A stretch of 54,727 nt of DNA, taken from contig JAAXXL010000010.1 of the NCBI GenBank assembly GCA_013334485.1, positions 1 through 54,727 of the forward strand, read 5' to 3'. Shown one piece after another: positions 1 through 51,552 of this stretch. Source of the DNA: Chlorobiaceae bacterium (GTDB lineage: Bacteria > Bacteroidota > Chlorobiia > Chlorobiales > Chlorobiaceae). Position 1 is the stretch's first letter. Each line of letters opens with the position of its first letter. Below the pieces are notes generated by a model that did no database searches, was not told the origin of the DNA, and was given only the letters and a program-made list of their open reading frames with translations. The translations under genes and the position numbers were made by a program.

Positions 1-594
1 TATTTCAGCCTTGTCCATACAGAAAAAGCTTCGGCAAGGAGTGGTGCGACTCCATGGTATCCTCGTCGGGCAGTGTCATAAATCAGCGGCTTTATTTTCA
101 GAATATCAAGCAGACCATCCTCACCAATAACTTCCTCATCTGCCTTGACATCAATAATCTCCCCTATAAACTGGGTATGGAGTCCCAATTCAATAACGTG
201 CTGCAGACAGCACTCCAGAACCACAGGAAATTCAGCCGCATAAGGGGCATCAACGACCTCACTGCGGACGTGAGTCAGTCCACTTACTGAAAATTTATCG
301 ACATCGCGTCCTGAAACCACCCCGACGTAATCTGCCTCTGCAATCTTCTCTTCACAGGCAATTCCAACCGTAAATGCACCACGTTCAATAATGCTCGTGT
401 AAGTGTAAGTCGCTTTTACGCAAAGAAATAGCAAGACAAGGCGGTTGAGAACAACATATACCTCCCCATGCAGCACTCATTAGATTAGGTTTACCATGCC
501 GATCGTAACTCCCGACCATCAGTACCGGTGTCGGGAAGAGCAACGTTTTGGCTCCAAACGATTTTTTCATATCATATCCATCACTGGAACTCAT
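1..594 (-). pseudogene. flavin reductase-like protein (flavoredoxin family), frameshifted
   Basis: This is an FMN-binding split-barrel flavin reductase of about 197 residues; family members reduce or bind FMN and pass electrons on. The first part reads in one frame from the ATG at 594 (or the ATG at 570) through [11 protein letters not shown] and LMSAAWGGI to SLRK near 418, then meets TGA at 385. Removing one T from the T4 run at 414-417 restores an unbroken frame down to position 1, where the last codon is followed by TA, so the stop lies at the window edge. The ATG at 592-594 overlaps the nitroreductase TGA (ATGA), so the two are translationally coupled at the end of the nitrogenase-like operon. 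The single-base change in a homopolymer could be a real inactivating mutation, phase variation or a sequencing error. Confidence 0.8.
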
Positions 595-1127
595 TTCAGC
601 CTGTTGTATTTTATTTTTTCATACTGGAGAGTTTCCACCGGTATCAAAGGTTTTTCCTCACCGGGATACCCTATCCCTACTATCAGGGCAACCTTCATAT
701 GTTCCGGAAGACCAAGCAGCTCCTGGAGATACATTTCGGCACTTTTTTCGTTATCATGCATCCGATTCCTGATCTGTACCCAGCAACTACCAAGCCCCTC
801 GCAGGAGGCGGCGAGTTGAATAAGCGTTGCGGCAATGGAACAATCTTCAATCCAGAAATCAGCTTTGACGCTGTCGGCACAAACAACAATTGCTAATGGT
901 GCTGTTTTCAGAAACCCGGATCCATACGGTTTGACCTCTGAAAGCTTGATAATCAGCTCCGGATCATCAACCAGAATGAATTCCCATGGATTTAAACCTC
1001 TCGCTGACGGCGCTCTGAGAGCCGCCTCAATGATGGATTTTATTGATTCAACCGGAATTGTTTCTTTGGTAAAGAGCCTGATACTGCGTCGTTCTCGCAA
1101 TAATGCAATAAAAGCGTTCTGCGCCAT
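591..1127 (-). CDS. nitroreductase-family FMN oxidoreductase
   Basis: This is a 178-residue nitroreductase-fold protein; the family uses FMN and NAD(P)H to reduce nitro, quinone or enone groups, normally as a cytosolic dimer. Near the N-terminus it has RERRSIRLF, the phosphate-binding arginine/serine pattern of FMN sites. [12 protein letters not shown] and GLGSCWVQ follow, and the C-terminal [10 protein letters not shown] matches the family's typical end. An in-frame ATG exists at 1157, but the ATG at 1127 has a good Shine-Dalgarno sequence (AGGGGATAT) and begins 3 bp after the MFS gene ends, so I chose it. It sits in the distal part of the nitrogenase-like operon and overlaps the flavin reductase by ATGA. 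Its substrate is unknown; a reductive step on the product of the system is plausible inference. Confidence 0.85.
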
Positions 1128-1129
1128 AA

Positions 1130-2371
1130 CTATATCCCCTGTTCCTCTCCACCACATGCAACTCCAAGGGAGAGAAGTGATTCATTTTCAGACTGCTGCT
1201 CGCGCAATTCAGAGTGAATAATAGAGAGCCCCAATAACAGGAAGAGAGGGATAAATACCGCAAAAACAAGCCCGACAGAAATATAATTACTGAGCCATCC
1301 GGCAAGGAGAGGGCCTGTTGTAAATCCCGTTCCTCCTGCAGCCAAAAGAAGACCCGATGCCTTGCCCTTCTCCCCGCGCAAACTGCCGATTCGAGCATAG
1401 TTAACCAATTGGGTAAGACCAAGTCCAATCCCGAGTATTGTGGACGATAACAGAATCACCGGCAGATTTGACGGGAAGCTCAAAGCAAACAAGCCCAGTG
1501 AGGCAATGATAAAACTCGCCACGTAAAGACGTGCCTGTGAAAAGCGCTTCACCAATGATCCTGCAGTAAACACAACAAGAATCGCTGCACAGCCGTTAAG
1601 CGTTAACACAACCGAAGCCAGAATTGAGGAGAGTTTCAATGTCTTGATAATAATGACAATCATCAGCACACTGAAAGTTGCGGAACATGCGCCCATGAGT
1701 GACTCTGCCAAAAGGGTGTAGCGTATTGACTTGTCGAAAAGAAGTTCCTTGAACGCCTCCATCTGCGAAACAAATTTCCCTTTTTCGTTAATCTCCGCAC
1801 TTTTCGCAGGAGTTTCCCGATAACGAAAAAACACGATGAGAATCGGAATGGGATAAAGAAGCAGAACCATAAGAAAAATGGAGGGATAGTCTATATACCG
1901 GGTCAACAGGCCGCCAAGCAACGGACCGATGGCAACCGCACCGAGCAGCAGCGAACCATTTATCCACGCAGCCTTCTCCATTCCGATAATACCGAGCGAG
2001 CGAAAAAACGCTGCATTTGTAGCGATAAGGCTTAACGAGCGAAAAAATCCATACATACTCATCAGTACAATCAGGGAGAGTGGCGTAGCAGCCAGACATA
2101 CCCCGACAATGACCAGGGTGCAGCTAATACTCCCGGCAAGATAGAGACGCTTTGAGCCGAAGTGATCGACAAGAAAACCGGCAGGGATAACCGTAAGGAA
2201 CATACCAAGCCCCATACCCCCGCGAATCAGCCCAAGCTCGGCGTTACTTGCATTAAGACTCAAGGCAAAAAGGGGTATGACCATCTGGAATATACCCACC
2301 GTGATCCCGGTAAAGAGATTAATCGATACAAAACCAGGGAGAAGCCATGTTTTGTTGTGCTGATCTGTCAT
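1130..2371 (-). CDS. MFS transporter (paralogue of the one at 15745-16968)
   Basis: This is a 413-residue major facilitator superfamily protein with about 12 hydrophobic segments and the loop 2-3 signature GFLVDHFGSKRLYL (the family GX3DRXGRR loop). Similar short loops and a second-half repeat are visible. The longer reading frame begins at a TTG at 2395, but the ATG at 2371 has GAGAGAAATGA just upstream and fits the family's N-terminus better. It is clearly related to the MFS gene at 15745-16968, sharing the order of motifs (LTVIPAGFLVDH versus LTVLPIGLLVDH, and LGIGLGLTQLVNYAR versus LIGIGLGMFNLVNVTR). It follows an SDR and precedes a nitroreductase by 2 bp, so it belongs to the same transcript. 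It probably moves the substrate or product of the nitrogenase-like pathway; direction and ligand cannot be read from sequence. Confidence 0.88.
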   Translation of the reverse strand: MTDQHNKTWLLPGFVSINLFTGITVGIFQMVIPLFALSLNASNAELGLIRGGMGLGMFLTVIPAGFLVDHFGSKRLYLAGSISCTLVIVGVCLAATPLSLIVLMSMYGFFRSLSLIATNAAFFRSLGIIGMEKAAWINGSLLLGAVAIGPLLGGLLTRYIDYPSIFLMVLLLYPIPILIVFFRYRETPAKSAEINEKGKFVSQMEAFKELLFDKSIRYTLLAESLMGACSATFSVLMIVIIIKTLKLSSILASVVLTLNGCAAILVVFTAGSLVKRFSQARLYVASFIIASLGLFALSFPSNLPVILLSSTILGIGLGLTQLVNYARIGSLRGEKGKASGLLLAAGGTGFTTGPLLAGWLSNYISVGLVFAVFIPLFLLLGLSIIHSELREQQSENESLLSLGVACGGEEQGI

Positions 2372-2425
2372 TTCATTTCTCTCTTTTTCTCGCAAACTGT
2401 TTCAGGAATACGCTCGTTCACACGC

Positions 2426-3127
2426 TTATTGCGGCTGGCCAGTCGGTCGAATGAGAATTTCATTGACATCAACATGTTGAGGCTGACTCACAGCATACAT
2501 AACTGAACGGGCGATATCATCAGAGGTTAACTCATTTGGAATATCCGGTTTCACGAGGTTATCCCAGAAAGGGGTGTCGACAATACCGGGATTAATAAGT
2601 GTTACACGAACCCCGGTTCCGACCACCTCATTACGAATAGACTGCGCCATACCGGTAACAGCCCATTTTGTTGCTGCATAGAGGTTTTTGGACGACGTAT
2701 TTCTGCCTGCAACTGATCCGGTAATAAGAAGATGTCCCTGGTTTTTAACCAGTTCCGGCAGTGTCAGCCTTACTGTAGCTGCCGCACCATAAACATTGAC
2801 AAGAACCATCTCCCTCCACTCTTCCGGGCTCTCTTCTCCCCCATAAAAAGAGGACCCTCCCGAAAAACCGGCATTGGCAAATACCACATCAATGCGACCA
2901 AAGCGTTCAAGGGCATGGCGCACCAGTTCCTGCTGCGATTGCCAGCTTGAAACATCACAGGTAACAGCATATGCCCGCTCTTTACCAAGCTCGGCCTGAA
3001 GCCGTTCAAGTTTTGCTGTTGAACGAGCTGCAAGCACTACATTAAATCCTGCTTCAACGGCACGCCGTGCTGTCGCTTCACCAATACCGGTTGAGGCTCC
3101 GGTAACAAGAAATACCTTATTACTCAT
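2426..3127 (-). CDS. short-chain dehydrogenase/reductase 1
   Basis: This is a 233-residue classical SDR, a cytosolic NAD(P)-dependent oxidoreductase. It has the cofactor glycine motif TGASTGIG at residues 9-16, the FANAG structural motif, a catalytic Ser in TGSVAG and the active-site YAATK. The residue after the second beta strand is Arg (LAARS), which usually goes with NADP(H). It lies 32 bp downstream of radical-SAM paralogue 1 and about 54 bp before the MFS start, all on the same strand. The Shine-Dalgarno sequence is weak. Together with the second SDR at 8234-9025 it suggests keto/hydroxy interconversion in the pathway. The substrate is unknown. Confidence 0.9.
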   Translation of the reverse strand: MSNKVFLVTGASTGIGEATARRAVEAGFNVVLAARSTAKLERLQAELGKERAYAVTCDVSSWQSQQELVRHALERFGRIDVVFANAGFSGGSSFYGGEESPEEWREMVLVNVYGAAATVRLTLPELVKNQGHLLITGSVAGRNTSSKNLYAATKWAVTGMAQSIRNEVVGTGVRVTLINPGIVDTPFWDNLVKPDIPNELTSDDIARSVMYAVSQPQHVDVNEILIRPTGQPQ

Positions 3128-3159: not shown

Positions 3160-4356
3160 TTATGCAACCAGTCCCTTGAAAACAGGTAGCGTTTCATCCT
3201 CAATCTGATAAATGTCGTGAATAACGGTTATCGGGGCCGCATTGCAATCATACAGCTCCTCATAGGTGAACCCGTTCTTTCTGAATATGCCGGCGATTTT
3301 TTTGTAGAGATCAAAATGCCAGGCAGGTTCCGGTGAACGGTGACCCTCAAGAGCAGAACCGGGGTTCGGATTCCAGCTCGTTGCAAAGCAGATCACACCC
3401 TTTGATGCGAGGTACTCAATACCCTCAAGGGTGGAATCCTTCGGTTCAATACCGGCAACGATGTTCGAGCGCACCTTTCCTTTTCCGAAAACCTGGGCTT
3501 CATATTCAAGTGTCTTCACCCAATGATCATACCCGCCGGACTCAATATCCTTGCCAGGGCAGATAGCCTTGAAAATGTTTTTGTCCCAGATCTCAATGTT
3601 TGTTGCTACGGTACGGAAACCAGCCTCCTTGTACTTGTCGATGATGCTCAGATCGTGAGGCGCACCAATCACGGCAGTCCCGTTAAAATCGGCAAGTCCG
3701 GTATGCTCCCTGATTGAATCAGCAACATCGAGGTAATACTCCACCTCTCGTCTCTCGGCAACAAAGCCTCCCGTGAGTGTAATATGACGTGCTCCATCTT
3801 CGCGGTAGGCAGCCGCAACGGTTTCGCCAATCTGGTGCGGATACTTCCATCCAATGCCTTCTATCTCCCCATAGGTATTTTTCGTCGCATTGATATTGCA
3901 AAATTTGCAATCACGTCCCTTTTCCTTGAACGCACACTCGTTACTGTAGGGAACAAGAATCGCCCCGTCCTGGGTATACATGGCAAGGGTGTTCATTCTT
4001 ACGCCATCAGAAGTTTTCAGACCGTAATACTTCGGGCGATCAAGGAATTCAATCGGAAAAATAACCTCCCCATTGTGGGCAAGGTAGAAAACACCATTCT
4101 CCACAATGAAGGTGTAGGGCGACCTTCTATCCCACTTCAAAACGTAGACAAGTCCATGCGGAGACTTGAAGCCTGCAGGAAACTGGATGCCGACATGCGA
4201 TTCATGGTCGCCTTCAAACAAGCAGTGAACCTCCTCCTGGTAGCGACCGCCAAGATCAACATTTCTGAAAATATGCGGGTCGAAATTGATCCCTTCGACA
4301 CCGGTAATAATTTTAAGTTCCAGTTCCCTGTACAATGTTTCCTTCAGCGTGCTCAT
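3160..4356 (-). CDS. radical SAM protein, CX8CX2C family, paralogue 1
   Basis: This 398-residue protein is one of six paralogues in this cluster. Residues 1-135 form an N-terminal region found in all six (FDPHIF, DLGG, HVGIQFP, WDRRS, KTSDG) that I cannot assign to a named domain. The cluster cysteines are C141, C150 and C153, giving CX8CX2C; the last two match the radical-SAM CX(aromatic)C rule and are followed by NINAT. LTGG after the cluster resembles the SAM-binding GGE-type motif. A conserved CPGK and a C-terminal YDCNA add two more cysteines. The start has a strong Shine-Dalgarno sequence (AAGGAGATAAAT). This copy directly follows the K-like subunit, so it is the one most tightly tied to the nitrogenase-like enzyme. 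Substrate unknown. Confidence 0.85.
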   Translation of the reverse strand: MSTLKETLYRELELKIITGVEGINFDPHIFRNVDLGGRYQEEVHCLFEGDHESHVGIQFPAGFKSPHGLVYVLKWDRRSPYTFIVENGVFYLAHNGEVIFPIEFLDRPKYYGLKTSDGVRMNTLAMYTQDGAILVPYSNECAFKEKGRDCKFCNINATKNTYGEIEGIGWKYPHQIGETVAAAYREDGARHITLTGGFVAERREVEYYLDVADSIREHTGLADFNGTAVIGAPHDLSIIDKYKEAGFRTVATNIEIWDKNIFKAICPGKDIESGGYDHWVKTLEYEAQVFGKGKVRSNIVAGIEPKDSTLEGIEYLASKGVICFATSWNPNPGSALEGHRSPEPAWHFDLYKKIAGIFRKNGFTYEELYDCNAAPITVIHDIYQIEDETLPVFKGLVA

Positions 4357-4418: not shown

Positions 4419-5768
4419 TCATGAACATCCCAATGCTGCTGACGATTGCTGATGGACAGGATTATGATGCCTGTCAGAAAGCAGTGCACTGCCAAGATCT
4501 TCAAGGAGCGTGGATGCACCGCGATAACCGGCATAGCCTCTGGCCAGTACAAGCCTGTCTGATAAGGGAAATGAGAGCTGCACAAAGGGAACCTCCAACT
4601 CGGCAGCCACCGCTTCCTCAAGTGCACTTCCAAGTACGAGTGAAGCAGAAGCAGAGCGAACCAGATCCGATATTTCGGCAAAATCCTCCGTGAACGACAC
4701 CTCTGTCGGGAATCCATTCAGAAGTGACGTCAATCTTGATAACAAAGCTTCCCTCGCATATTCAGGGGGATTATCAGTTATAATCAGAGTGCGTGGAATG
4801 AGTCCAAGGGTACCGCTCAAAAACTCACTGATTCCCGCAACCTGGGCACTCTCTCCTACAAGCGTAAATTCGCGCTGAAAACCAGCCCGATACCAGGTAT
4901 CAGCAAGAGCGGCGAGTTGAGCATCAAATCGTCTCTCTTCAGACTGCACAAAGTGTTCAGTCCTTCTGGAATCGAGCTGAAGGAGTTCACTTATTTCATA
5001 AAGAAAACGTCCGGCAGCAGCTCCGACCGGCAGCCCTTCAAGTGAAAGGTGCGGTGTGCCATAGCGCTCCTCAAGCAGTAATGCCGGAGCGTCTCCCCAA
5101 ACCGATACAACAATATTGAGCAGGGCATCAGGAACCCTCTGCCAGCCGGAAACACCCTGACCGTAGCCGAAAAGCAGATTTGGTGTCAGACCGATCCCTT
5201 CAAGCAAGCGGCCGATCTCCTCCAGATTTCCCTCCCAGAATGGATCCTGCCGGGGAACAATCCCGAGAATATTGACCAGCCCCTTGACCGGCGGTTGTTC
5301 GGCCTTTCCAAGATCCGGCAGTTGCTCGATCAACGCTTTTATTGCCAACTGATAGCCCTGATGCACATCACCGCGAAATCCCGGTGTATTGGCATAGATA
5401 ACAGGGAAATCCTGGTCACGACCCTCTTTGTTCATTGCAGGAATATCATCACCAACCATTTCGGTGGCACATCCCGTCACGATGACATAGAGATCCCCCT
5501 CGACAATTTTAACCGTATTTTTAAGTTGTTCGCGCAGACGGGAACTGCCTCCGAACACAACATGTTTTTCGCTGATGTTGCTGCTTGAGATTGCACTCCC
5601 ACCGAATCTGTCACTGCCGGCATTTAAACGGTTGACTCCGAGGTAATGTTGTGCACCACAACCCGCAGTACTGTGAACAACAGGAACAAACCCCTCTATT
5701 GCCTCTATAACCTGAAGTGCTCCATGCAATGCGCAGGAGTTGCGTGAACTGTCAATATGATGCGCCAT
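4419..5768 (-). CDS. nitrogenase component 1-like protein, three-cysteine subunit
   Basis: This 449-residue protein belongs to the NifD/K/E/N superfamily (PF00148 type). The start chosen is the ATG at 5768, which lies 1 bp past the D-like stop; the open frame extends upstream only as an overlap with that gene. C12 (RNSCALHGAL), C37 (HSTAGCGAQHYLG) and C100 (VTGCATEMVGDD) match the three P-cluster cysteines of true nitrogenases, with SSSNISEKHVVFGG between them as in the family. There is one further Cys near the extreme C-terminus and none in the middle, so no cofactor cysteine is apparent. It probably pairs with the D-like subunit at 5770-7182 and takes electrons from the H-like protein at 7205-8083. 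The substrate is not predictable from sequence. Confidence 0.9.
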   Translation of the reverse strand: MAHHIDSSRNSCALHGALQVIEAIEGFVPVVHSTAGCGAQHYLGVNRLNAGSDRFGGSAISSSNISEKHVVFGGSSRLREQLKNTVKIVEGDLYVIVTGCATEMVGDDIPAMNKEGRDQDFPVIYANTPGFRGDVHQGYQLAIKALIEQLPDLGKAEQPPVKGLVNILGIVPRQDPFWEGNLEEIGRLLEGIGLTPNLLFGYGQGVSGWQRVPDALLNIVVSVWGDAPALLLEERYGTPHLSLEGLPVGAAAGRFLYEISELLQLDSRRTEHFVQSEERRFDAQLAALADTWYRAGFQREFTLVGESAQVAGISEFLSGTLGLIPRTLIITDNPPEYAREALLSRLTSLLNGFPTEVSFTEDFAEISDLVRSASASLVLGSALEEAVAAELEVPFVQLSFPLSDRLVLARGYAGYRGASTLLEDLGSALLSDRHHNPVHQQSSAALGCS

Positions 5769-5769
5769 A

Positions 5770-7182
5770 CTATTTAACTTCCTTTTTGATATGCCAGTTG
5801 GGACTGCGACGCAACCATCCATCCTTGTAGGGTAGCGATGAACGGGAAAGCGCTTCACCAAAAGAGCGGTTGAGCAATGCAGTGGAAATTCGTCTCGCAA
5901 GAGCTGTAACTCCCCGGTAACCAAGAACAGGAACATCTCTGAGAGAGACTACCGGTATACCGAGTCTTCCGACCTGAGCGAGATGGAGAGAATCGCCAAG
6001 ATAGAGATCAGGGCTGAGGCGCTTGATGATGTTCACCTCTTCAAATGGCTGACCATCAGCCACATGAATCAAAAGCGCGGGATGCCTGGCGGATAGTTCT
6101 TCAATAGCCCCTTTGTGCAGTTGGTCGAGACGACTCACCGTTATACCGACAACCTCACCTCCAAGTTCCTCCACAAGCTCCAGTACCCCGAATGCTGTAG
6201 ATGGAGCGAGCGAAAGGTAGACCTGCAATCCTTTAAGTGTAAAATCGCCGATGGAATGGCGGACTTTTTCGGATTCCTGTTCATGAAGCTTTTGTGCCGA
6301 CTCGTCAAGACCCAATGCCTTGCCAACACCTGCAAGCCAGCGTCCTGTTGCACCGAGACCTACCGGACGCGGCAGTGCGGAGTAGGGAACGTCATACTCA
6401 TCACGCAGTGAGACACCGAGATAATTAGCACTATCCTGATCCAAAGAGAGAGAAAGCCTTGCCGTCGCTGCCTGGTGGAAAGAGCCCTTTGAGGCTCCAT
6501 CCGGAAGCGTGTTCAACTCCAGACCAAGAGCAAGGAGGAGACGCTGAGCCTCATTGCGATCATGAGGGTGTTCGGCTATTGAGAGCAGATTCACCCTGTC
6601 ATCATGGGGATGCTTTCCCTTTTTTCCTCCAAGATATTTCAACAGGGAGTGCAGTGTTGTATCATAACCGGTCACGGCATGATGCGAGGCAAAACCGGTT
6701 ACATAGATCGGAACTATATCCAGCTCAAGTTCTTCATGCAGCTCCTCAACAACAGACTGTATATCATCATTGTTGATGGCAACAACCGGGCTCGACACAA
6801 TAAAAAGGAGTTCCGGATTATAGCGTTGATTGACATCTTTAACCGCCTTACGCAGTTTTCCATCTGCCCCCATGATGGTATCCCTGTCATCAAGATTGGT
6901 AACAATCCAGCGACCTTTGCCGCGCTCCACATGATGAAAAAGAGCTGCTGCTGCACAGCCGCGCGGAGCATGAATAACTACAACACTGTCACGGATGCCA
7001 GCAAGAAGACGGAGCGCATAGAGGAGATCGTCCTCGCTGCTCTGCGAAAATGTGCGTATGCGTTTAACCGGCTCGCCCAGAGAAAATTCTGTCAAGGCAG
7101 AAAAGAGTGTTCCCTGCCAGGCGTTCAGTGTATCAAGCTGCTTCTCACGGGTACGGGAGGCTTTGGCTTTTAAAAGACTCAT
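5770..7182 (-). CDS. nitrogenase component 1-like protein, one-cysteine subunit
   Basis: This is a 470-residue NifD/K-superfamily subunit. The start is the ATG at 7182 (MSLLKAK), preceded by GAGGGCGAT; the upstream extension to 7260 overlaps the H-like gene and is not family-like. It holds a single cysteine, C76 in IHAPRGC, which aligns with the central P-cluster Cys. The positions of the other two are FSQSSED and IVSSPVVAINNDD, that is, Ser in place of Cys. A 3+1 Cys arrangement with the neighbouring subunit is like that reported for chlorophyllide reductase BchYZ, and would hold a [4Fe-4S] cluster, not an 8Fe P-cluster. No FeMo-cofactor Cys is present. It lies between the H-like gene (22 bp gap) and the K-like gene (1 bp gap). 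Confidence 0.88.
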   Translation of the reverse strand: MSLLKAKASRTREKQLDTLNAWQGTLFSALTEFSLGEPVKRIRTFSQSSEDDLLYALRLLAGIRDSVVVIHAPRGCAAAALFHHVERGKGRWIVTNLDDRDTIMGADGKLRKAVKDVNQRYNPELLFIVSSPVVAINNDDIQSVVEELHEELELDIVPIYVTGFASHHAVTGYDTTLHSLLKYLGGKKGKHPHDDRVNLLSIAEHPHDRNEAQRLLLALGLELNTLPDGASKGSFHQAATARLSLSLDQDSANYLGVSLRDEYDVPYSALPRPVGLGATGRWLAGVGKALGLDESAQKLHEQESEKVRHSIGDFTLKGLQVYLSLAPSTAFGVLELVEELGGEVVGITVSRLDQLHKGAIEELSARHPALLIHVADGQPFEEVNIIKRLSPDLYLGDSLHLAQVGRLGIPVVSLRDVPVLGYRGVTALARRISTALLNRSFGEALSRSSLPYKDGWLRRSPNWHIKKEVK

Positions 7183-7204
7183 AGGTATCGCCCTCTTTTC
7201 TCTG

Positions 7205-8083
7205 TTAAATAGACTCCATTTTCTGTACCACTCCGGTCTCCACCTCAAAAATCCTGTCACCCCAGGTCCTCGCCCACTTCTTCAGTTCAGGGCCATTGAG
7301 CGGTTTCGGGATGACTGAATCTTCATTGGTATCGAGATATTTTGCAAGATTTCGATAGACATCTGCCTGCTCCGATTTCGGGTGTGCTTCAATAACCGTC
7401 TGACCGTAAAGTTCACTTTGAGAAACAGTAAATGAACGTGGAACATAGCCGACAACTGACGTACCGGTTTCTCCGGTAAAATCATCAATCAGCGCTTTGG
7501 CGTAAGGCGCCTGTACACTATTGGCAATTACCCCTCCAAGACGGGCACCGCCGGAAGGCGCGTATTTATTGATGGCCTTGAAGAGATTATTTGCAGCAAA
7601 AATTGCCATAAAGTCTGATGAGGTCACCACAAATGCGCGATCAGCAATACCGTCACGAATCGGCACAGCAAATCCGCCGCAAACCACATCACCCAATACA
7701 TCATAAAGCACAAAATCAGGCTTGTACTCTTCAAAAAGGTGCAGCTCCTGAAGCAGTTCCACGGCAGCGTTGATACCCCGCCCGGCGCAACCAACACCCG
7801 GAACAGGTCCGCCAGCTTCAATGCAGAGCACTCCTCCAAAGCCAACCGCAGAGACGTCCTCAATTTTGACCTTGCTCTGTTCACGCAGCGTGTCAAGCAC
7901 AGTTGGAAGATCATTGCCGCCTCTCAAAATGGTTGTTGAATCGCTTTTCGGATCGCATCCTATCTGAATAACCCTGTAGCCTGCATCGGCAAGAGCCGCA
8001 CTGATATTTGACGTTGTGGTTGACTTGCCTATCCCCCCCTTGCCATATATTGCAATGTGTTTTCCCTGTTTTTTCTCACTCAT
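7205..8083 (-). CDS. nitrogenase iron protein-like ATPase (NifH/BchL/BchX superfamily)
   Basis: This 292-residue protein is the ATP-dependent electron donor for the adjacent D/K-like complex. It has the P-loop GKGGIGKST near residues 14-22, [10 protein letters not shown] after the second strand, and both subunit-bridging cluster cysteines, in PGVGCAGRG and GDVVCGGF. The Arg in GCAGRG that is ADP-ribosylated in NifH is kept. The start has a good ribosome-binding site (CCAGGAGC). The order H-D-K matches nitrogenase operons, but nifE, nifN and nifB are absent and the partners are not nitrogenase subunits, so this is not NifH of N2 fixation. It lies 150 bp after SDR 2, which leaves room for an internal promoter I could not identify. 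Confidence 0.93.
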
Positions 8084-8233: not shown

Positions 8234-9025
8234 TTAAATTTTAATTGACGGAGGAAGAGCTGCGCCGCCAAAAGCAAAACCACCTCCGGAAATATCCAGC
8301 CTGGCACCCGAAATAAAGGATGCCTCGTCAGAGAGTAACCAGACAACCGGTTTTGCGATCTCATCAACTGATGCGGGACGGCCAAGAGGTATTGTTGCTG
8401 AAATCTCAGCAAGAAGCCTGGAATCCTTCGCGTAAGCTTCGGTCATCTCAGTGAGGGTAAAACCGGGACGCACCGAAACTGCACGAATACCTTCTGAGGC
8501 TACCTCCTTGGCAAGGCCAACCGTGAAGGTATCTACCGCCGCTTTGCTTGCTGCATAGAGAGCGACTCCGGGGCGCCCGCCTATGGTTGCCGCCATTGAG
8601 GAGATATTGATGATAACGCCACCCCGTCCGCCGCGCGCAGTAGACATACGACGGACAGCCTCCCTGGTTGAGAAGATCAATCCAATCACATTGGTATCAA
8701 AAAGACGATGAAGCAGTTCAGCATCAGCCTCATCAACCCGGCTGCGTCCGGCAAGAGTACCCGCACTGTTTACTACCGCCGTAACCGGGCCGAGTTGTTC
8801 ATCAATTTCCCTGTACAGTCGCTCGACATCTTCAGGAAGAGCGATATCAGCCTGAACGGCAATGGCACGAACACCGCTATCTCTTAACTCTTTGACAAGG
8901 GCAACTGCCTCCAACTCCCTTGTTCGGTAGTTAACAGCAATATCGTATCCCTTTCTTGCAGAGAGCCTTGCGACCTCGGCACCGATACCGCTTGCTCCTC
9001 CGGTTATGAGCAGTACTTCAGACAT
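8234..9025 (-). CDS. short-chain dehydrogenase/reductase 2
   Basis: This 263-residue classical SDR has TGGASGIG at residues 8-15, NSAG, the catalytic Ser in INISSMA, and YAASK. VNYRTRE after the second strand, with Arg, suggests NADP(H). The C-terminal SFISGARLDISGG follows the FabG-like pattern (SGxxxxVDGG). It lies about 40 bp after radical-SAM paralogue 2 and 150 bp before the H-like gene, all on one strand. It is less than half identical by eye to the SDR at 2426-3127, so the two probably act on different intermediates. Substrate unknown. Confidence 0.9.
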   Translation of the reverse strand: MSEVLLITGGASGIGAEVARLSARKGYDIAVNYRTRELEAVALVKELRDSGVRAIAVQADIALPEDVERLYREIDEQLGPVTAVVNSAGTLAGRSRVDEADAELLHRLFDTNVIGLIFSTREAVRRMSTARGGRGGVIINISSMAATIGGRPGVALYAASKAAVDTFTVGLAKEVASEGIRAVSVRPGFTLTEMTEAYAKDSRLLAEISATIPLGRPASVDEIAKPVVWLLSDEASFISGARLDISGGGFAFGGAALPPSIKI

Positions 9026-9066: not shown

Positions 9067-10278
9067 CTAAACCACCTCGACCGCAGCACTCTCTTCCCTG
9101 AAAATGGGCAACAGCTCCTCCTCAATGCGGTAAATATCATGAATAATGGATACACCCGAGGAGGAGGTGTCGTAGATCTCATCATAAGTGAAACCGCTTT
9201 TTCTGAAAATCGCTGCGATTTTCTTGTACAGGTCGAGATGCCATGCCGGTTCCGGGGTTCGATGACCCTCAAGCGCCGAGCCTGGGTTTGGATTCCAGCT
9301 TGTCGCAAAACAGACAACACCTTTGGAGGCAAGAAACTCAATACCCTCAAGCGTCGTATCCTTCGGCTCAATACCTGCCACGATGTTGGAGCGCACCTTG
9401 CCACGACCGAACACCTGAACTTCATGCTCCAGCGTCTTCACCCACTGCTCCAAACCACCCGACTCGAGATACTTTCCGGGGCAGAGAGCCTTGAAAATAT
9501 CTTTATCCCAAAACTCGATATTCGTTGCAATGGTCCGGAAACCAGCCTCCTTGTACTTGTCGATGATGTCGAGATCATTGGGTGCGCCAATGACGGCAGT
9601 ACCATTGAAATCGTCGAGACCGGTATGCTCCCGGATGGAATCGGCTACGTCGAGATAGTACTCCACTTCACGCCTTTCGGGCACATACCCGCCGGTGAGG
9701 CTCAAATGGCGTGCACCATCCAACCGGTATGCCGCCGCAACGGTTTCGCCGATCTGGCGAGGATAGGTCCAGCCGATGCCCTCCTCCTCTCCGTAAGTAT
9801 TATGGGTTGCATTGATGTTGCAGAATTTGCAATCGCGCCCCTTCTCATTGAAGGCGCACGAATTGCTGTACACAACATGAAGCTTCCCTTCCTGATTGTA
9901 GAGGGCTATAGTGTTCATTTTCGTCCCGTCGGAGGTCTTCATCCCGTAGTATTTCGGACGGTCAGGAAATCTGATCCGGAAGATGATCTCCTGTCCGCTC
10001 GAAAGATAAAAGGCTCCCTGATCGGCAATAATTGAATACCTTGATCTGCGATCCCACTTAAGGGGATAAAACAAGCCGCTTGGAGAATAGAATCCGGCAG
10101 GAAACTGAACCCCGACATGGGATTCATGATCCATTTCGAAAAGGGAGTGGACCTCCTCCTGATACCTTCCGCCAAGATCAAGGTGCCGGAAAATGTGCGG
10201 GTCGAAGCTGACACCATCAATACAGGCGATGGCCTTCACTTCCAGTTCCCTGTACAGCCTTTCTTTTATATTGCTCAT
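9067..10278 (-). CDS. radical SAM protein, CX8CX2C family, paralogue 2
   Basis: This is a 403-residue paralogue with C141, C150 and C153 (SNSC then CKFCNINAT). It is the most divergent member. The N-terminal region has YLSSGQEIIF where the others have YLAHHGE, the C-terminal Cys is lost (IYDTSSSG instead of YDCNA), and the C-terminus is extended (EESAAVEVV). TGG, CPGK and NPNPGSALEGHR are conserved. The loss of the C-terminal Cys shows that it is not required by the whole family, and may mark a different role or substrate. It lies 28 bp downstream of paralogue 3 and 41 bp upstream of SDR 2, and is co-transcribed with the nitrogenase-like genes. Confidence 0.84.
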   Translation of the reverse strand: MSNIKERLYRELEVKAIACIDGVSFDPHIFRHLDLGGRYQEEVHSLFEMDHESHVGVQFPAGFYSPSGLFYPLKWDRRSRYSIIADQGAFYLSSGQEIIFRIRFPDRPKYYGMKTSDGTKMNTIALYNQEGKLHVVYSNSCAFNEKGRDCKFCNINATHNTYGEEEGIGWTYPRQIGETVAAAYRLDGARHLSLTGGYVPERREVEYYLDVADSIREHTGLDDFNGTAVIGAPNDLDIIDKYKEAGFRTIATNIEFWDKDIFKALCPGKYLESGGLEQWVKTLEHEVQVFGRGKVRSNIVAGIEPKDTTLEGIEFLASKGVVCFATSWNPNPGSALEGHRTPEPAWHLDLYKKIAAIFRKSGFTYDEIYDTSSSGVSIIHDIYRIEEELLPIFREESAAVEVV

Positions 10279-10306: not shown

Positions 10307-11500
10307 TTAAACAAGCTGACCTTCAAATACCGGCAGCAGTTCATCCTCAATCCGATAGATGTCATTGATCACACCTATTGGCGCTGCATTGCAGTCATAG
10401 ATCTCATCATAGGTAAAGCCATACTTGCGGTGTATAGCTGCAATCTTTTTGTAGAGATCAAAATGCCAGGCGGGTTCCGGTGAACGATGACCCTCAAGTG
10501 CTGAGCCTGGATTCGGATTCCAGCTCGTTGCAAAGCAGATCACTCCCTTTGAAGCGAGGTATTCTACTCCTTCCAGTGTTGAATCTTTCGGTTCAAGACC
10601 CGCAACGATATTTGAGCGAACCTTTCCTCTGCCGAACACTTCCACTTCGTATTCCAGAGCCTTCACCCAATGCTCCCAGCCGCCGCACTGCAGCTCCTTG
10701 CCGGGGCAAATTGCCTTGAAGATGTTACGGTCCCAGATCTCGATATTGGTCGCAATGGTGCGATAACCGGCCTCTTTGTACTTGTCGATGATGCTGAGGT
10801 CGTGTGGTGCTCCGACGCAGGCAGTACCATTGAAATCCTCAAGTCCGGTGTGCTCCTTGATGGCATCGGCAACATCGAGGTAGTACTCCACTTCGCGCCG
10901 CTCGGCAACAAATCCACCGGTTATTGTAACATGGCGCGCGCCATCCCTGTAAGCTGCACCTACGGTTTCACCAACCTGCTTCGGATACTTCCAGCCGATG
11001 CCTTCTATTTCGCCATAGGTGGCCTTCGTAGCATTGATGTTGCAGAATTTGCAATCGTGATCTTTTTCCTTGAGTGCGCACTCATTACTGTAGGCTACAA
11101 CCACAGCGCCTTCCTGAAGGTAGCTTGCTATGGTAGGCATGCTGGTACCGTCAGAAGTTTTCAAATTGTAATAGTTCGGCCGCTCAAGAAATTCAACTGG
11201 ATACAGTACCTCTCCATGGTGAGCCAGATAGTAGGTTCCACTTTCATAGATGAATGAATACGAAGATCGGCGATCCCACTTGAGGTAATTGATCAAACCG
11301 TGAGGGGAATAAAAACCGACAGGAAATTTTATACCCACATGAGTTTCATGTGCGAACTCCATACAGAAATGGATATCCTCCTGAAATCGTCCGCCGAGAT
11401 CGAGATGTTTAAAAATATGCGGATCAAAATTTATTCCCTCAACACCGGTTATAATTTTTAGTTCCAGCTCCCTGTACAATGTCTCTTTAATATTGCTCAT
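10307..11500 (-). CDS. radical SAM protein, CX8CX2C family, paralogue 3 (first gene of the downstream operon)
   Basis: This is a 397-residue paralogue with C141, C150 and C153. It is the first gene after the leader and attenuator-like terminator at 11635-11661, so it starts the transcript that ends with the flavin reductase at position 1. The ribosome-binding site is AAAGGGAGTGG, nearly the same as that of the PNPOx gene at 23927-24388. About 128 consecutive residues of its catalytic core, from GWKYPKQ to GRGKVRS, are identical to paralogue 6, although the DNA differs at many synonymous sites. The N-terminal 130 residues differ clearly between the two. Function unknown. Confidence 0.85.
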   Translation of the reverse strand: MSNIKETLYRELELKIITGVEGINFDPHIFKHLDLGGRFQEDIHFCMEFAHETHVGIKFPVGFYSPHGLINYLKWDRRSSYSFIYESGTYYLAHHGEVLYPVEFLERPNYYNLKTSDGTSMPTIASYLQEGAVVVAYSNECALKEKDHDCKFCNINATKATYGEIEGIGWKYPKQVGETVGAAYRDGARHVTITGGFVAERREVEYYLDVADAIKEHTGLEDFNGTACVGAPHDLSIIDKYKEAGYRTIATNIEIWDRNIFKAICPGKELQCGGWEHWVKALEYEVEVFGRGKVRSNIVAGLEPKDSTLEGVEYLASKGVICFATSWNPNPGSALEGHRSPEPAWHFDLYKKIAAIHRKYGFTYDEIYDCNAAPIGVINDIYRIEDELLPVFEGQLV

Positions 11501-12051: not shown

Positions 12052-13245
12052 TCAGGCTACTTTTGCTTGAAATACCGGCAGTCGTTCTTCTTCAATCCGG
12101 TAGATATCATGTGCAATACTTGTTGGCGCAGCATAGCAATCATAAAGCTCATCATAGGTAAAGCCATACTTTCTGTAAATAGCTACTGCTTTTTTGTAGA
12201 GATCAATATGCCATGCCGGCTCAGGCGAACGATGTCCAGCCAAAGCTGACCCCGGGTTCGGGCACCAGCTTGAAGCAAAGCATATTACCCCTTTTGACGC
12301 GAGATACTCAATACCCTCAAGAGTAGAATCTTTTGGCTCAATACCGGCAACGATATTTGAGCGAACCTTTCCTCTCCCGAAAACCTCAACTTCATACTCC
12401 AGAGCCTTAACCCAATGCTCCCAGCCACCGCACTGCAGCTCCTTGCCGGGGCAGATGGCCTTGAAGATATTCCTGTCCCAAATCTCAATGTTGGTAGCAA
12501 TAGTGCGATAGCCGGCCTCCTTGTACTTGTCGATGATGCTGAGGTCGTGAGGAGCACCGACACATGCCGTGCCGTTGAAATCCTCAAGCCCGGTGTACTC
12601 CCGGATTGCATCAGCAACGTCAAGGTAGTATTCAACTTCCCTGCGCTCAGCGACAAAGCCTCCTGTTATGGTAATGTGATGAGCGCCTTCTCTGTATGCT
12701 TCAGCAACGGTCTCACCAACCTGTTTCGGATTTTTCCAGCCAAGGCCTTCAGCCTCCGCATAGGTATCTTTCGTTGCATTGATATTGCAGAACTTGCAGT
12801 CATGATCTTTTTCCTTAAGGGCACACTCATTACTGTAGCAAACCGTTAACGCCCCATACTGACCGAAGCGTACAAGATTGGACATGCTTGTCCCATCCGA
12901 AGTTTTCTTGCCGTAATAGTTCGGGCGCTCAAGAAATTCAACAGGAAACAGGCGCTCACCGTGATGAGCAAGATAGAAACTCCCATTGTCATTAATCAGG
13001 GAATAGGTGGACCGGCGATCCCACCGTAGAGCGTATACCAAACCGTGGGGTGAACGAAAACCGGTAGGAAACTTGATACCAACATGAGTTTCATAGGCCA
13101 TCTCAAAACCGGAGTGTATCTCCTCCTGATAAAGTCCGCCGAGATCAAGCTGCTTGAAAATATGCGGATCGAAGTTGATACCCTCCACTCCGGTGATGAT
13201 TTTCAGTTCCAGTTCCTTGTACAAGGTCTCTTTAATATTGCTCAT
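12052..13245 (-). CDS. radical SAM protein, CX8CX2C family, paralogue 4
   Basis: This is a 397-residue paralogue with the CX8CX2C motif at C141, C150 and C153 and the C-terminal YDCYA Cys. An extra Cys appears in SSWCPNPGSALAGHR, where the others read WNPNPGSALEGHR. The stretch around CPGKELQCGGWEHW through GRGKVRSN equals paralogues 3 and 6. It is the last gene of the upstream operon, 32 bp after paralogue 5, and is followed by the terminator at 11970-12007. The N-terminal region (HIFKQLDLGGLYQEE) is distinct, consistent with a different substrate or protein partner. Function unknown. Confidence 0.85.
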   Translation of the reverse strand: MSNIKETLYKELELKIITGVEGINFDPHIFKQLDLGGLYQEEIHSGFEMAYETHVGIKFPTGFRSPHGLVYALRWDRRSTYSLINDNGSFYLAHHGERLFPVEFLERPNYYGKKTSDGTSMSNLVRFGQYGALTVCYSNECALKEKDHDCKFCNINATKDTYAEAEGLGWKNPKQVGETVAEAYREGAHHITITGGFVAERREVEYYLDVADAIREYTGLEDFNGTACVGAPHDLSIIDKYKEAGYRTIATNIEIWDRNIFKAICPGKELQCGGWEHWVKALEYEVEVFGRGKVRSNIVAGIEPKDSTLEGIEYLASKGVICFASSWCPNPGSALAGHRSPEPAWHIDLYKKAVAIYRKYGFTYDELYDCYAAPTSIAHDIYRIEEERLPVFQAKVA

Positions 13246-13277: not shown

Positions 13278-14477
13278 TCATGCAACAAGACTTTTGAAAA
13301 CCGGTAGCGTTTCATCCTCAATCCGGTAAAGATCACTGATGATCCCCGTTGCTCCGGAGCAGTCATAGAGTTCCTCATATGTAAACCCGTACTTTCTATG
13401 GATTGCGAAGATCTTCTTGAACAGATCAAAATACCATGCCGGCTCAGGTGCACGATGTCCCTCCAGAGCAGAGCCGGGGTTTGGATTCCAGACTGTAGCA
13501 AGAGCGATAACACCCCTGGAAGCAAGGTATTCGATGCCTTCAAGAGTTGAGTCCTTGGGTTCAATTCCAGCCACAAGGTTTGAACGAACCCTGCCGTGAC
13601 CAAAAACCTTAACTTCATGATCGAGAACCTTCAGCCAGTGATCCCAACCTCCGCACTGTTGCTCCTTGCCTGGGCAGATGGCCTTGAAGATGTTTTTATC
13701 CCAGATTTCGATATTGCTTGCAATCGTTCGGTAGCCGGCCTCTTTGTACTTCTCAATGACACTGAGATCCAGTGGTGCGCCAATTGCCGCAAGGCCGTTA
13801 AAATCCTCAAGCCCTGTATGCTCCTTGATGGAATCGGCAACATCGAGGTAGTACTCGACCTCTCTGCGTTCCGCAACAAATCCGCCGGTCAGGTTTACAC
13901 GACGAGCCCCTTCACTGAACTCCCTGTATGCAGCGGCAACAGTTTCGCCAACCTGCTTCGGAGTTTTCCACCCGATACCTTCTATCTCTCCGTACGTATC
14001 CTTTGTTGCATTGATGTTGCAGAATTTGCAGTCCTGACCTTTCTCTTTCAATGCACATTCGTTACTGTAAGAGATCAAAACTGAACCCTCCTGAACATAT
14101 GGTGCTATTGTGGACATGGGGGTACCGTCAGAGGTTTTCAGCCTGTAATAGTCCGGGCGCTCAACAAATTCAACGGCAAACAGTACTTCACCATGATGAG
14201 CCAGATAGTAACTGCCTTTGTCATGAATGAGCGAGTAAGATGACCTGCGATCCCATCTCAGGTTGAATATCAATCCATGAGGAGAACGAAAAGAGGAAGG
14301 AAACTTGATCCCTGCATGAGTTTCATAGGCCATCTCGAAAAGACAGAGTACCTCCTCCTGATAGCGCCCCCCAAGATCAAGATCTCTGAAAATAAGGGGA
14401 TCAAAGCTGATACCTTCATCATTGGTTGAAATTTTCAACTCCAGTTCCTGGTATAATATTTCCTTTAGTGTGCTCAT
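13278..14477 (-). CDS. radical SAM protein, CX8CX2C family, paralogue 5
   Basis: This is a 399-residue paralogue with the cluster motif in SNEC and CKFCNINAT. It carries a two-residue insertion between the cluster and the TGG motif (REFSEGARRV) and changes in otherwise fixed places: FNGLAAIGAPLDLSVIEKY instead of FNGTA-IGAPHDLSIIDKY, and VIALATVWNPN instead of VICFATSWNPN. The C-terminal Cys is kept (YDCSGATG). It lies 22 bp after paralogue 6 and 32 bp before paralogue 4. These core changes make it, with paralogue 2, the likeliest to have a different substrate. Function unknown. Confidence 0.84.
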   Translation of the reverse strand: MSTLKEILYQELELKISTNDEGISFDPLIFRDLDLGGRYQEEVLCLFEMAYETHAGIKFPSSFRSPHGLIFNLRWDRRSSYSLIHDKGSYYLAHHGEVLFAVEFVERPDYYRLKTSDGTPMSTIAPYVQEGSVLISYSNECALKEKGQDCKFCNINATKDTYGEIEGIGWKTPKQVGETVAAAYREFSEGARRVNLTGGFVAERREVEYYLDVADSIKEHTGLEDFNGLAAIGAPLDLSVIEKYKEAGYRTIASNIEIWDKNIFKAICPGKEQQCGGWDHWLKVLDHEVKVFGHGRVRSNLVAGIEPKDSTLEGIEYLASRGVIALATVWNPNPGSALEGHRAPEPAWYFDLFKKIFAIHRKYGFTYEELYDCSGATGIISDLYRIEDETLPVFKSLVA

Positions 14478-14499: not shown

Positions 14500-15693
14500 T
14501 CAAGCAACCTTTGCCTTGAAAACAGGCAGCGTCTCTTCTTCTATCCGATAAATATCATGGCATATGCCTGTCGGAACAGCCGAGCAATCGTAAAGTTCTT
14601 CATAGGTAAATCCATACTTTCTGTATATGGCCGTAGTTTTCTTGTGAAGATCAATATGCCAGGCCGGTTCGGGTGAACGATGTCCTTCCAGTGCTGATCC
14701 GGGATTCGGATTCCAGCTTGATGCCAAACATATCACACCCTTTGAGGCGAGGTATTCAATCCCCTCAAGAGTAGAATCCTTTGGTTCAATTCCTGCAACA
14801 ATAACCGAACGGACTTTCCCTCTGCCAAAAACCTCCACCTCATACTCCAGCGCCTTCACCCAATGCTCCCAGCCGCCGCACTGAAGCTCTTTTCCGGGGC
14901 AGATTGCCTTGAAAATATTCCGGTCCCAGATTTCGATATTGGTGGCTATAGTGCGATACCCTGCCTCTTTATACTTGTCAATGATGCTGAGGTCGTGAGG
15001 CGCTCCGACACACGCTGTACCGTTGAAATCCTCCAGTCCAGTGTGTTCTTTGATTGCATCGGCTACATCGAGGTAGTACTCCACTTCACGCCGTTCAGCG
15101 ACGAAACCACCCGTGATCGTTACATGACGAGCTCCATCCCTGTAAGCCGCACCGACGGTTTCACCTACCTGCTTGGGATATTTCCATCCCACGCCTTCTG
15201 CTTCTCCATAAGCTGCCTTCGTCGCATTGATGTTGCAGAACTTGCAGTCATGATCCTTTTCCTTGAGGGCACACTCATTGCTGTAGGCAACTGCAAGGGC
15301 TCCCTCCTGGGCATAACCCGCAATAACGTTCATACTTGAACCGTCTGTAGTTTTCAGCCCGTAATAGTTAGGACGATCAAGAAATTCAACCGGAAATAAA
15401 AACTCTCCATGATGAGCCAGATAGTAAACCCCTTTTTCTAAAATGAAGGAGTAAGGTGATCTGCGATCCCAGCGAAGGTTAAATATCAAACCGTGGGGAG
15501 AACGAAAACCTGCTGGAAACAGAATGCCCACATGAGTCTCATAGGCCATCTCGAAACAGAGGTGATGAACCTCCTGATACCGGCCCCCGAGATCAAGAGG
15601 CTTGAAAATGTGAGGATCGAAACTGATGCCCTCAACATTGGTGGCAATTTTGAGTTCCAGCTCCCTGTACAACGCATCTTTAATATTGCTCAT
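14500..15693 (-). CDS. radical SAM protein, CX8CX2C family, paralogue 6
   Basis: This is a 397-residue paralogue with C141, C150, C153 and the C-terminal YDCSA. Its catalytic core is identical to paralogue 3 over about 128 residues, with many silent DNA differences, so the match reflects constraint more than very recent duplication. LHKK replaces the usual LYKK. The gene follows the MFS transporter at 15745-16968 by 51 bp and precedes paralogue 5 by 22 bp. Substrate unknown. Confidence 0.85.
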   Translation of the reverse strand: MSNIKDALYRELELKIATNVEGISFDPHIFKPLDLGGRYQEVHHLCFEMAYETHVGILFPAGFRSPHGLIFNLRWDRRSPYSFILEKGVYYLAHHGEFLFPVEFLDRPNYYGLKTTDGSSMNVIAGYAQEGALAVAYSNECALKEKDHDCKFCNINATKAAYGEAEGVGWKYPKQVGETVGAAYRDGARHVTITGGFVAERREVEYYLDVADAIKEHTGLEDFNGTACVGAPHDLSIIDKYKEAGYRTIATNIEIWDRNIFKAICPGKELQCGGWEHWVKALEYEVEVFGRGKVRSVIVAGIEPKDSTLEGIEYLASKGVICLASSWNPNPGSALEGHRSPEPAWHIDLHKKTTAIYRKYGFTYEELYDCSAVPTGICHDIYRIEEETLPVFKAKVA

Positions 15694-15744: not shown

Positions 15745-16968
15745 CTATGAGTTCAGGGCAATAGCTGAATTTTGTTCTTCTCCCTCATCAAGAATCTCAA
15801 CCGATCCATTAAGTTCACTGCTGAATTGAATAACTAATGCAAGCAGCAGATAAAGCGGTATAAAAATCAGAAATACCGACCACGAGCCCAGCAACTCTCC
15901 TGCTACTCCCCCGATTACCGGGCCGATGATTGCACCAAGCATGGTAAACATTGAAAAGAGGGCGGCACTCTTCCCTTTTTCCGTATTCGCATTAGCTACA
16001 CGGGTGACGTTGACCAGATTGAACATCCCGAGACCTATTCCGATAAGCAGAGTGCCTGCTATAAGGAATACCGGGTGCAGCATGCACGAGAGCAGTGACA
16101 ATCCAGCGATAACTATGGCAATGCTCACCAGGTAGAAATGGCGCTGACCGAGTTTCTCCAGTACCCGACCGAAAGTGAAGAGTGTGGCAATAAATACCAC
16201 GCCTTCAAACGAGACAAAAAGGGATGATGCCTGAACCGTAAAATGAAATACCCGAATTGCAATCACCACAATGAATGCGTTAAAACAGGAAAACGTAGAT
16301 AACGCCAGCGCTTCCGCTCCGGAAGCTTCCAGGATATTGCGATCCCTGAAAAACAGTTTCAGGTTAGCAAGGTTTTCTGAGAGAGTTGTACTACTGCCCG
16401 AACGTTCTGTCTCGGGAAAGATCACCGGTGCGCCAAAAACAAGAAGCAGTACTGCTGCGCTTACTACATAAAAGGTAATGTTGAGCCCCCAGTAGCTGCT
16501 GATGGATGCACCGCATAAAGGGCCAAGCAAAACAAGACCAAATGACAGAGATCCCCGCTGCCAGCCCGCTTTTTTACTTCCGGCATGCCTGACAAACTCG
16601 AGAAAAGCTGTAGTCATCGGAATGAATCTGAACGCGGTAAAAAAGCCGACCAGGGCAACAAACCATATCAGGTTATCAGATGAACGTGCAAGAGGGAAAA
16701 GAAGATAGATCAGCGCACTTGCCATAGCGCCGAAAACAAACACTCTGCGTGGACCAACATGATCAACCAGCAAACCGATCGGCAAAACAGTAAGAAGCAA
16801 TCCAATACCCTGTACACCTCCGATCAGACCGATTTGAGCAGCAGTAGCACCAAGCTCAACGGCATAGAGCGTTATTGCCATCTGGGCGACACCCATCCCT
16901 GCGCCTCCGAGAACGGAGAATACCATGAACTGGAGAAGCAATTTATTTCTGAGAATTTTCTCTTTCAT
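15745..16968 (-). CDS. MFS transporter (paralogue of the one at 1130-2371)
   Basis: This is a 407-residue, 12-segment MFS permease with the loop 2-3 motif GLLVDHVGPRRVFVFG and a long central loop rich in charged residues (FPETERSGSS). The ATG at 16966-16968 overlaps the TGA of the PNPOx-like gene (ATGA), showing translational coupling, and radical-SAM paralogue 6 follows. Two related MFS proteins in two operons of the same system suggest uptake and efflux, or transport of two related compounds. The direction is not known. Confidence 0.88.
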   Translation of the reverse strand: MKEKILRNKLLLQFMVFSVLGGAGMGVAQMAITLYAVELGATAAQIGLIGGVQGIGLLLTVLPIGLLVDHVGPRRVFVFGAMASALIYLLFPLARSSDNLIWFVALVGFFTAFRFIPMTTAFLEFVRHAGSKKAGWQRGSLSFGLVLLGPLCGASISSYWGLNITFYVVSAAVLLLVFGAPVIFPETERSGSSTTLSENLANLKLFFRDRNILEASGAEALALSTFSCFNAFIVVIAIRVFHFTVQASSLFVSFEGVVFIATLFTFGRVLEKLGQRHFYLVSIAIVIAGLSLLSCMLHPVFLIAGTLLIGIGLGMFNLVNVTRVANANTEKGKSAALFSMFTMLGAIIGPVIGGVAGELLGSWSVFLIFIPLYLLLALVIQFSSELNGSVEILDEGEEQNSAIALNS

Positions 16969-49637: not shown

Positions 49638-49648
49638 TGAGGTACTGA

Positions 49649-51511: not shown

Positions 51512-51552
51512 ATCCGTTACATGTGATTTTAGTACCTGATGAACAATTCCAA

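Follow-up and report, generated by a model that had tools for sequence, protein, structure and literature searches.

Which reaction would be served by a nitrogenase-like protein pair that has only four cysteines left at its P-cluster site, and what kind of cluster could these four hold? This question is raised by a 54,727-nucleotide stretch of DNA from a member of the Chlorobiaceae (assembly GCA_013334485.1, contig JAAXXL010000010.1; "the window" in the following), which encodes a NifD-like (D, or NflD), a NifK-like (K, or NflK) and a NifH-like (H, or NflH) protein. We regard it with moderate confidence as the best overall explanation that the three constitute an ATP-driven nitrogenase-like reductase of the clade named after isethionate reductase (Isr; IsrHDK), with one cubane on the K side, partner proteins that consume S-adenosylmethionine (SAM), and sulfite as the product; the enzyme probably strips sulfur from organic sulfonates via one simple iron-sulfur cluster in place of the elaborate metal centres of nitrogenase. 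New here is the unusual composition of the locus, in which one HDK set is flanked by six radical-SAM paralogues, probably of the IsrB family, two short-chain dehydrogenase/reductase (SDR) oxidoreductases and two major facilitator superfamily (MFS) transporters, with an alkylsulfatase nearby.

Probable affiliation with the isethionate reductase clade

The window proteins were compared with those of 38 loci from a genome scan, comprising Chlorobiaceae, Geobacteraceae, Clostridium, Paenibacillus, Treponema, Rhodopseudomonas and Rhodovulum, among which the loci of Chlorobiaceae are nearest to the window. The alignments of D and of K contain 38 rows each; L060, with its gene split into two open reading frames (ORFs), was left out of the former, and L091, with no qualifying K ORF, out of the latter. 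The split concerns the NflD orthologue of one Chlorobiaceae metagenome-assembled genome (L043/L060, D gene at about 7180-7208), in which H and K are intact, and reflects either decay or an assembly error. Viral contigs gave six pattern matches, none of them a relative, while a tblastn search of plasmids returned 14 records; the D proteins of Treponema and Chlorohelix among these are Mar-like with extra cysteines, and a Nostoc record was left out of the alignment. In the source genome itself, which encodes nif proteins as well as BchN, BchB, BchY and BchZ, the PF00148 matches are confined to these proteins and the D/K pair of the window.

K contains cysteines 12, 37, 100 and 448, the last of which is unconserved and sits in the variable C-terminal tail. 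Cys37 and Cys100 are present in 38/38 rows and Cys12 in 37, the exception (L082) being a mis-chosen start, as its DNA encodes the residue. D has exactly one cysteine, Cys76, which is found in all 38 rows. Both minus-strand reading frames of the pair (Table 1) and these 3+1 cysteines, as given in an initial annotation of the window, are borne out; the pattern as such, however, is already in print for IsrDK of Rhodobacter capsulatus (PMC11423573).

The features printed for the R. capsulatus IsrBHDK proteins are D Cys74, K Cys12, Cys37 and Cys99, H Cys99 and Cys135, proline or serine at the third D column, and no equivalent of Cys275 (PMC11423573). The window shows the same cysteine pattern, with K Cys12, Cys37 and Cys100, only the Cys88 equivalent in D, Cys99 and Cys135 in H, and Asp248 at the column of Cys275; in the related locus L090, the D cysteine even bears the number 74, as in R. 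capsulatus. In a tree of D proteins, 21 Isr-type rows, R. capsulatus IsrD not included, separate from the Nif, Bch and Mar-like sequences (support 93/96, under the strict mark), and window D groups with homologues of Rhodopseudomonas, Rhodovulum, Paenibacillus and Geobacter. The gene order radical SAM-H-D-K occurs in the Rhodopseudomonas and Rhodovulum loci, whose radical-SAM proteins are 52–54% identical to the nearest window paralogue (R. capsulatus IsrB itself is not in this comparison). We therefore call the window system an Isr-clade reductase and assign it no particular substrate.

Like IsrBHDK, the window combines H, D and K with a radical-SAM partner, three K cysteines and one D cysteine without a Cys275 equivalent, and the published clade has sulfonate transporter genes as neighbours (PMC11423573). 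It differs in having six IsrB-family paralogues, as opposed to one each in the Rhodovulum and Rhodopseudomonas genomes searched, and in having two SDRs and MFS transporters with no SsuABC nearby. IsrDK has been purified with redox-active iron-sulfur absorbance, and its radical-SAM partner is essential in R. capsulatus (PMC11423573). The initial annotation had proposed that the substrate binds directly in the protein cavity, which we retain as a proposal, but it took no account of such a partner and did not name the IsrBHDK family. Two draws of genomes from the family of Rhodovulum (295 and 394 searched), aimed at R. capsulatus, each contained a single match, which was Rhodovulum itself. Judged by their listings, searches of open-licence literature gave no paper on Isr or such green sulfur bacterial proteins more specific than PMC11423573.

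Organosulfur neighbours and the radical-SAM array

Neighbouring genes were counted in flanks of up to 9 kb with BLAST thresholds set in the script; some flanks are short because of a contig end, which bears on counts of radical-SAM absence, and the SsuB count may include other ABC ATPases. An SsuB-like ATPase accompanies 32/38 loci, an SsuC-like permease 27/38 and an IsrB-type radical-SAM gene likewise 27/38. SsuB/SsuC-like genes flank the Rhodopseudomonas and Rhodovulum loci, and Rhodopseudomonas L088 has, in addition, SsuD (634 bits; cut-off 518.2). Genes related to SAM economy recur as well: metK adjoins H in 4/38 loci, these being all four Bacillota loci, and a methylthioadenosine/S-adenosylhomocysteine (MTA/SAH) nucleosidase is encoded in five (L070, L073, L081, L082, L087), in L070, L073 and L081 together with a purine-type permease. 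The Clostridium polyendosporum operon is preceded by a T-box (105 bits), whose specifier reads UGC (Cys) by manual comparison with the Rfam consensus rather than by tool output. Taken together, the sulfonate transporters, metK, nucleosidase and T-box of the related loci point to a SAM-consuming desulfurisation of sulfonates.

Two further kinds of neighbour were seen near HDK genes. BadF/HgdC-type ATPases and/or HGD-D proteins, representing another type of ATP-driven reductase, are encoded in L056 (14317-18435), L057, L059, L063 and L071, and arylsulfotransferase-like (ASST) genes in L058 (15438-16880), L059, L064 and L083.

The six radical-SAM proteins of the window all pass the NF045502 cut-off in the genome search (paralogues 1, 2 and 3 also in the NCBIfam scan) and are the only matches of their genome to this model. 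A Cx8CxxC motif is present in all six and in 63/64 radical-SAM rows, the remaining row having Cx6CxxC. In the radical-SAM tree, paralogue 2 pairs with L058 (100/100), paralogue 3 with L058/L059 (99/93), paralogue 4 with L058/L057 (100/99) and paralogue 5 with L058/L056/L057/L059 (100/98); paralogue 1 lies near L055/L064/L065/L083 (91/95), and paralogue 6 stands alone with no clear counterpart. These pairings of paralogues 1–5 across Chlorobiaceae species show that the array is old and has been kept. Comparable numbers of IsrB-type genes are found in the stretches of L057, L058 and L059 (6, 6 and 5), with nine NF045502 matches overall in the L058 genome. Recent gene conversion or fresh duplication was considered and rejected, given a DNA identity of 0.67–0.78 overall, a longest exact run of 33 bases and the counterparts of paralogues 1–5 in other species. 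Among the six proteins, mean identity is lowest (0.64–0.69) at alignment columns 41–160 and in the final block, and highest (0.83–0.86) at columns 201–320, which fits, without proving, different substrates on a common core. A second radical-SAM group, 26–32% identical to that of the window, also occurs near HDK genes (L055 649-1899, L056 12483-13745, L081 14253-15527 and others); it accounts for 16 rows of the tree and often adjoins a small FMN-protein-like gene.

A rival reading is that these proteins, instead of taking part in each turnover, act a single time to mature or activate HDK, with the six paralogues being redundant or maturing different things. This is the strongest of the competing explanations, and we consider it a real, though less probable, possibility. 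The Isr authors leave an activator role open, citing IslB and PflA as activators (PMC11423573), and 11/38 loci have no IsrB-type gene within the flank, one genome having no match at all. However, the presence of metK and MTA/SAH nucleosidase genes as neighbours suggests that SAM is used in bulk, counterparts of five window paralogues were kept in other species, and divergence among the six is greatest ahead of the cluster motif and at the C-terminal end. A more far-reaching and somewhat more tentative idea is that one HDK serves a radical-SAM battery in a modular desulfurisation system, in which each IsrB paralogue would take a different organosulfonate at the expense of one SAM per turnover, and the electrons would pass a K-side half P-cluster site of four cysteines and a conserved aspartate.

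The cluster site

In the MoFe protein, NifD Cys88 and NifK Cys95 are the bridging ligands between the P-cluster cubanes, and the other four cysteines are terminal ligands. K Cys12, Cys37 and Cys100 together with D Cys76 would then make up precisely the ligand set of the K-side cubane. The closest proteins of solved structure are MarD (E 9.6e-79) and MarK (E 7.9e-96), in which the P-cluster is held by MarK Cys32, Cys56 and Cys121 and MarD Cys66, Cys91 and Cys158, and the cofactor by MarD Cys270 and His429 (PMC12552129). A hidden Markov model (HMM) alignment to these chains (PDB 9fmg/9d9u) pairs K12 with Cys32, K37 with Cys56, K100 with Cys121, D51 with Cys66, D76 with Cys91, D132 with Cys158 and D248 with Cys270. 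This column pairing places Asp51 and Pro132 at the two ligand positions that D has lost; Mar-like plasmid D proteins have cysteine at the same columns in a MAFFT alignment. MarBHDK, with its ATP-driven reduction of C-S bonds and its radical-SAM gene, is the closest solved fold, but MarDK has six P-cluster cysteines plus Cys270/His429 for an [Fe8S9C] cluster (PMC12552129), whereas the window pair retains four of these six and has an aspartate at the Cys270 column. MarB, moreover, has NifB motifs, while the window partners belong to NF045502.

Serine had initially been assigned to the two lost positions, an assignment that the alignment does not uphold. Ser48/Ser49 and Ser130/Ser131 are mere neighbours of the ligand columns and vary among homologues, residue 131 being Asn or Thr in 26/38 D rows and residue 46 being Ala in 12/38. 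Asp51, in contrast to these, is invariant in the 37 D rows that cover it, and Pro132 is found in 37/38, with serine in L085. The AlphaFold2 model of window D (pLDDT 83.3, pTM 0.86) has MarD 9fmg_A as its best fold match (Z 36.9, root-mean-square deviation 2.6 over 435 residues). In this model, helix 52–60 begins right after Asp51, and Pro132 lies two residues past strand 125–130; in a model of D fused to K from a Geobacter homologue, helix 484–493 directly follows K Cys12 (residue 483), and K Cys100 (571) lies two residues past strand 564–569. This placing in both models agrees with the ligand columns of the HMM alignment, and in the structural alignment, model residue 52 pairs with residue 67 of 9d9u_A at its start. 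The Isr paper gives Arg at the NifD Cys62 position and Pro/Ser at that of Cys154 (PMC11423573). The latter agrees with residue 132 here, but the former disagrees with the MarD alignment, which has Asp51 at this position and pairs Arg41 and Arg43 with MarD Arg52 and Arg57; the comparison is between the text of that paper and our alignment.

The invariance of Asp51 at a former ligand column leads to the question of whether it is a true cluster ligand, so that four cysteines and a carboxylate would be available for a [4Fe-4S] cluster with Asp51 in place of Cys76, for a ligand-switching cluster or for one larger than a cubane. There is precedent for a carboxylate, since dark-operative protochlorophyllide oxidoreductase (DPOR) uses one aspartate of BchB (PMC11423573), and BchB of this genome has an aspartate at the K37 column. 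Yet four cysteines alone already complete a cubane, and Asp51, standing directly before helix 52–60, may just cap it; we therefore consider a ligand role unlikely, though worth keeping in view.

A single [4Fe-4S] cluster common to both subunits, as claimed in the initial annotation, remains the best reading and matches the suggestion of the Isr authors (PMC11423573). The likeness to BchYZ that was drawn along with it applies to the ligand count, but the subunit side is swapped. In BchN and BchY of this genome, cysteine occupies each of the three D-side columns, BchZ carries a single cysteine, at the K37 column, and BchB combines its aspartate there with a cysteine at the K100 column; the assignment for chlorophyllide a oxidoreductase (COR, BchYZ) rests on these sequences. 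The NifEN O-cluster uses three NifE cysteines (PMC13031127). The window pair would, thus, mirror BchYZ, BchNB and NifEN, with three ligands contributed by K in the window pair but by Y, N or E in the others. DPOR likewise has one cluster common to two subunits and no iron-molybdenum cofactor (FeMo-co), according to the published accounts, and in NifEN, the P-cluster site is occupied by a [4Fe-4S] cluster, as proposed for the window, but with the addition of an L-cluster. That the pair is a BchYZ-like reductase of tetrapyrroles or other rings is very improbable, even though the ligand count and the missing FeMo-co cysteine are those of BchYZ and the best NCBIfam model for K is BchB: the ligand side is swapped, MarDK is the closest solved relative, the recurrent neighbours are sulfonate genes, and BchNB and BchYZ are already encoded by the genome. 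Membership in BchYZ proper is rejected on the same reversal of sides and on scores far under the cut-offs (D to BchY, 21.7 bits vs. 425.15; K to BchZ, 39.6 vs. 529).

No mid-protein cofactor cysteine had been seen in the pair, which is true of the window with its Asp248 but not of all homologues, as the MarD Cys270 column contains D in 15, C in 9, N in 5, S in 4, F in 4 and T in 1 of the 38 D rows. The nine cysteine rows all come from Chlorobiaceae and Geobacteraceae loci and represent a loose end. Least probable of all is that DK contains an [Fe8S9C] cluster of the NifB type, provided by the nif system of the genome and held by other residues, for despite the nif proteins encoded, these nine rows and the [Fe8S9C] of MarDK (PMC12552129), the column is mixed and the radical-SAM proteins belong to NF045502 and not to NifB, whereas a NifB-type protein adjoins HDK in the Mar-like locus L053.

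Proposed mechanism and its setting

On the basis of the computed ligand columns, clade, fold and gene neighbourhood, we infer the cluster type, substrate class, electron route, radical-SAM role and SAM stoichiometry of the Isr-clade reductase as follows. H would hydrolyse ATP, and its [4Fe-4S] cluster at Cys99/Cys135 would hand electrons to a single [4Fe-4S] cluster between D and K, bound by three cysteines of K (12, 37 and 100) and Cys76 of D, the D-side half of the P-cluster having presumably been lost, with Asp51 and Pro132 in place of its two terminal ligands. As no FeMo-co or L-cluster would be bound, an organosulfur substrate, or an intermediate made by the radical-SAM protein, would be reduced in the protein cavity. 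The IsrB-family partner would consume SAM and supply the activation, probably in each turnover because of the metK and nucleosidase neighbours, and sulfite would be released for sulfur assimilation.

Several points weigh against this explanation. The clade assignment draws on features published for R. capsulatus Isr and on relatives, and no SsuABC genes lie beside the window operon. The loci without an IsrB-type gene in the flank, some of them on short contigs, and the Treponema genome of L086, which has no such gene at all, sit uneasily with an obligatory partner, as do the homologues with cysteine at the cofactor column with a missing cofactor. The D-K fusion model is of low confidence at the cluster site, with a pTM of 0.59 and cluster loops of pLDDT <50, and a ligand role of the invariant Asp51 would change the cluster model.

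The minus-strand gene run (Table 1) has the order MFS2, radical SAMs 6, 5, 4, 3 and 2, SDR2, NflH, NflD, NflK, radical SAM 1, SDR1, MFS1 and nitroreductase, with 0.55 kb devoid of ORFs >48 amino acids (aa) between radical SAMs 4 and 3. The alkylsulfatase gene lies directly upstream of the run and diverges from it. Elsewhere in the window (47778-52815, minus strand), a YcaO protein (49649-51511) and two other radical-SAM proteins, one with a weak score as a maturase of ribosomally synthesised peptides (RiPP), form a possible peptide-modification cluster. An Rfam scan of the window gave no matches.

Table 1. Genes and key codons of the window, with the matches on which their assignment is based.
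Feature	Position	Strand	Basis
NflK/IsrK-like subunit, 449 aa	4419..5768	-	PF00148, 233.8 bits; nearest solved relative MarK, 9d9u_C, E 7.9e-96
K Cys12 codon	5733..5735	-	MarK Cys32 column
K Cys37 codon	5658..5660	-	MarK Cys56 column
K Cys100 codon	5469..5471	-	MarK Cys121 column
NflD/IsrD-like subunit, 470 aa	5770..7182	-	PF00148, 218 bits; MarD fold match
D Cys76 codon	6955..6957	-	MarD Cys91 / NifD Cys88 column
D Asp51 codon	7030..7032	-	MarD Cys66 column
D Pro132 codon	6787..6789	-	MarD Cys158 column
D Asp248 codon	6439..6441	-	MarD Cys270 cofactor-ligand column
NflH/IsrH-like reductase, Cys99 and Cys135	7205..8083	-	TIGR01287, 375 bits, under cut-off 394.35
Radical-SAM paralogue 1, downstream of K	3160..4356	-	NF045502, 467.6 bits (cut-off 125); Cx8CxxC
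Radical-SAM paralogue 2	9067..10278	-	NF045502; Cx8CxxC
Radical-SAM paralogue 3	10307..11500	-	NF045502; Cx8CxxC
Radical-SAM paralogue 4	12052..13245	-	NF045502; Cx8CxxC
Radical-SAM paralogue 5	13278..14477	-	NF045502; Cx8CxxC
Radical-SAM paralogue 6	14500..15693	-	NF045502; Cx8CxxC
SDR2, oxidoreductase encoded between radical-SAM paralogue 2 and H	8234..9025	-	PF13561; orthologues adjoin H in related loci
Second SDR oxidoreductase of the run (SDR1)	2426..3127	-	PF00106
MFS transporter 1	1130..2395	-	PF07690
MFS transporter 2	15745..16968	-	PF07690
Nitroreductase-family flavin mononucleotide (FMN) protein	591..1157	-	PF00881
Pyridoxamine-oxidase-like protein, weak match	16965..17426	-	PF01243, under its cut-off
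Alkylsulfatase, metallo-beta-lactamase fold, divergent neighbour	18209..20173	+	PF14863, 186 bits; PF14864; PF00753

The authors of PMC11423573 settle neither the cluster and C-S chemistry of Isr nor the role of IsrB. To the known cysteine pattern, the present analysis adds the aspartate at position 51, the mirrored ligand side, the radical-SAM array and the neighbours related to SAM economy. A mirrored half P-cluster with an invariant Asp51 may provide a handle on how nitrogenase-type proteins lose or gain cubanes, and the six-member array, together with the metK and nucleosidase neighbours elsewhere, makes SAM turnover by IsrB testable.

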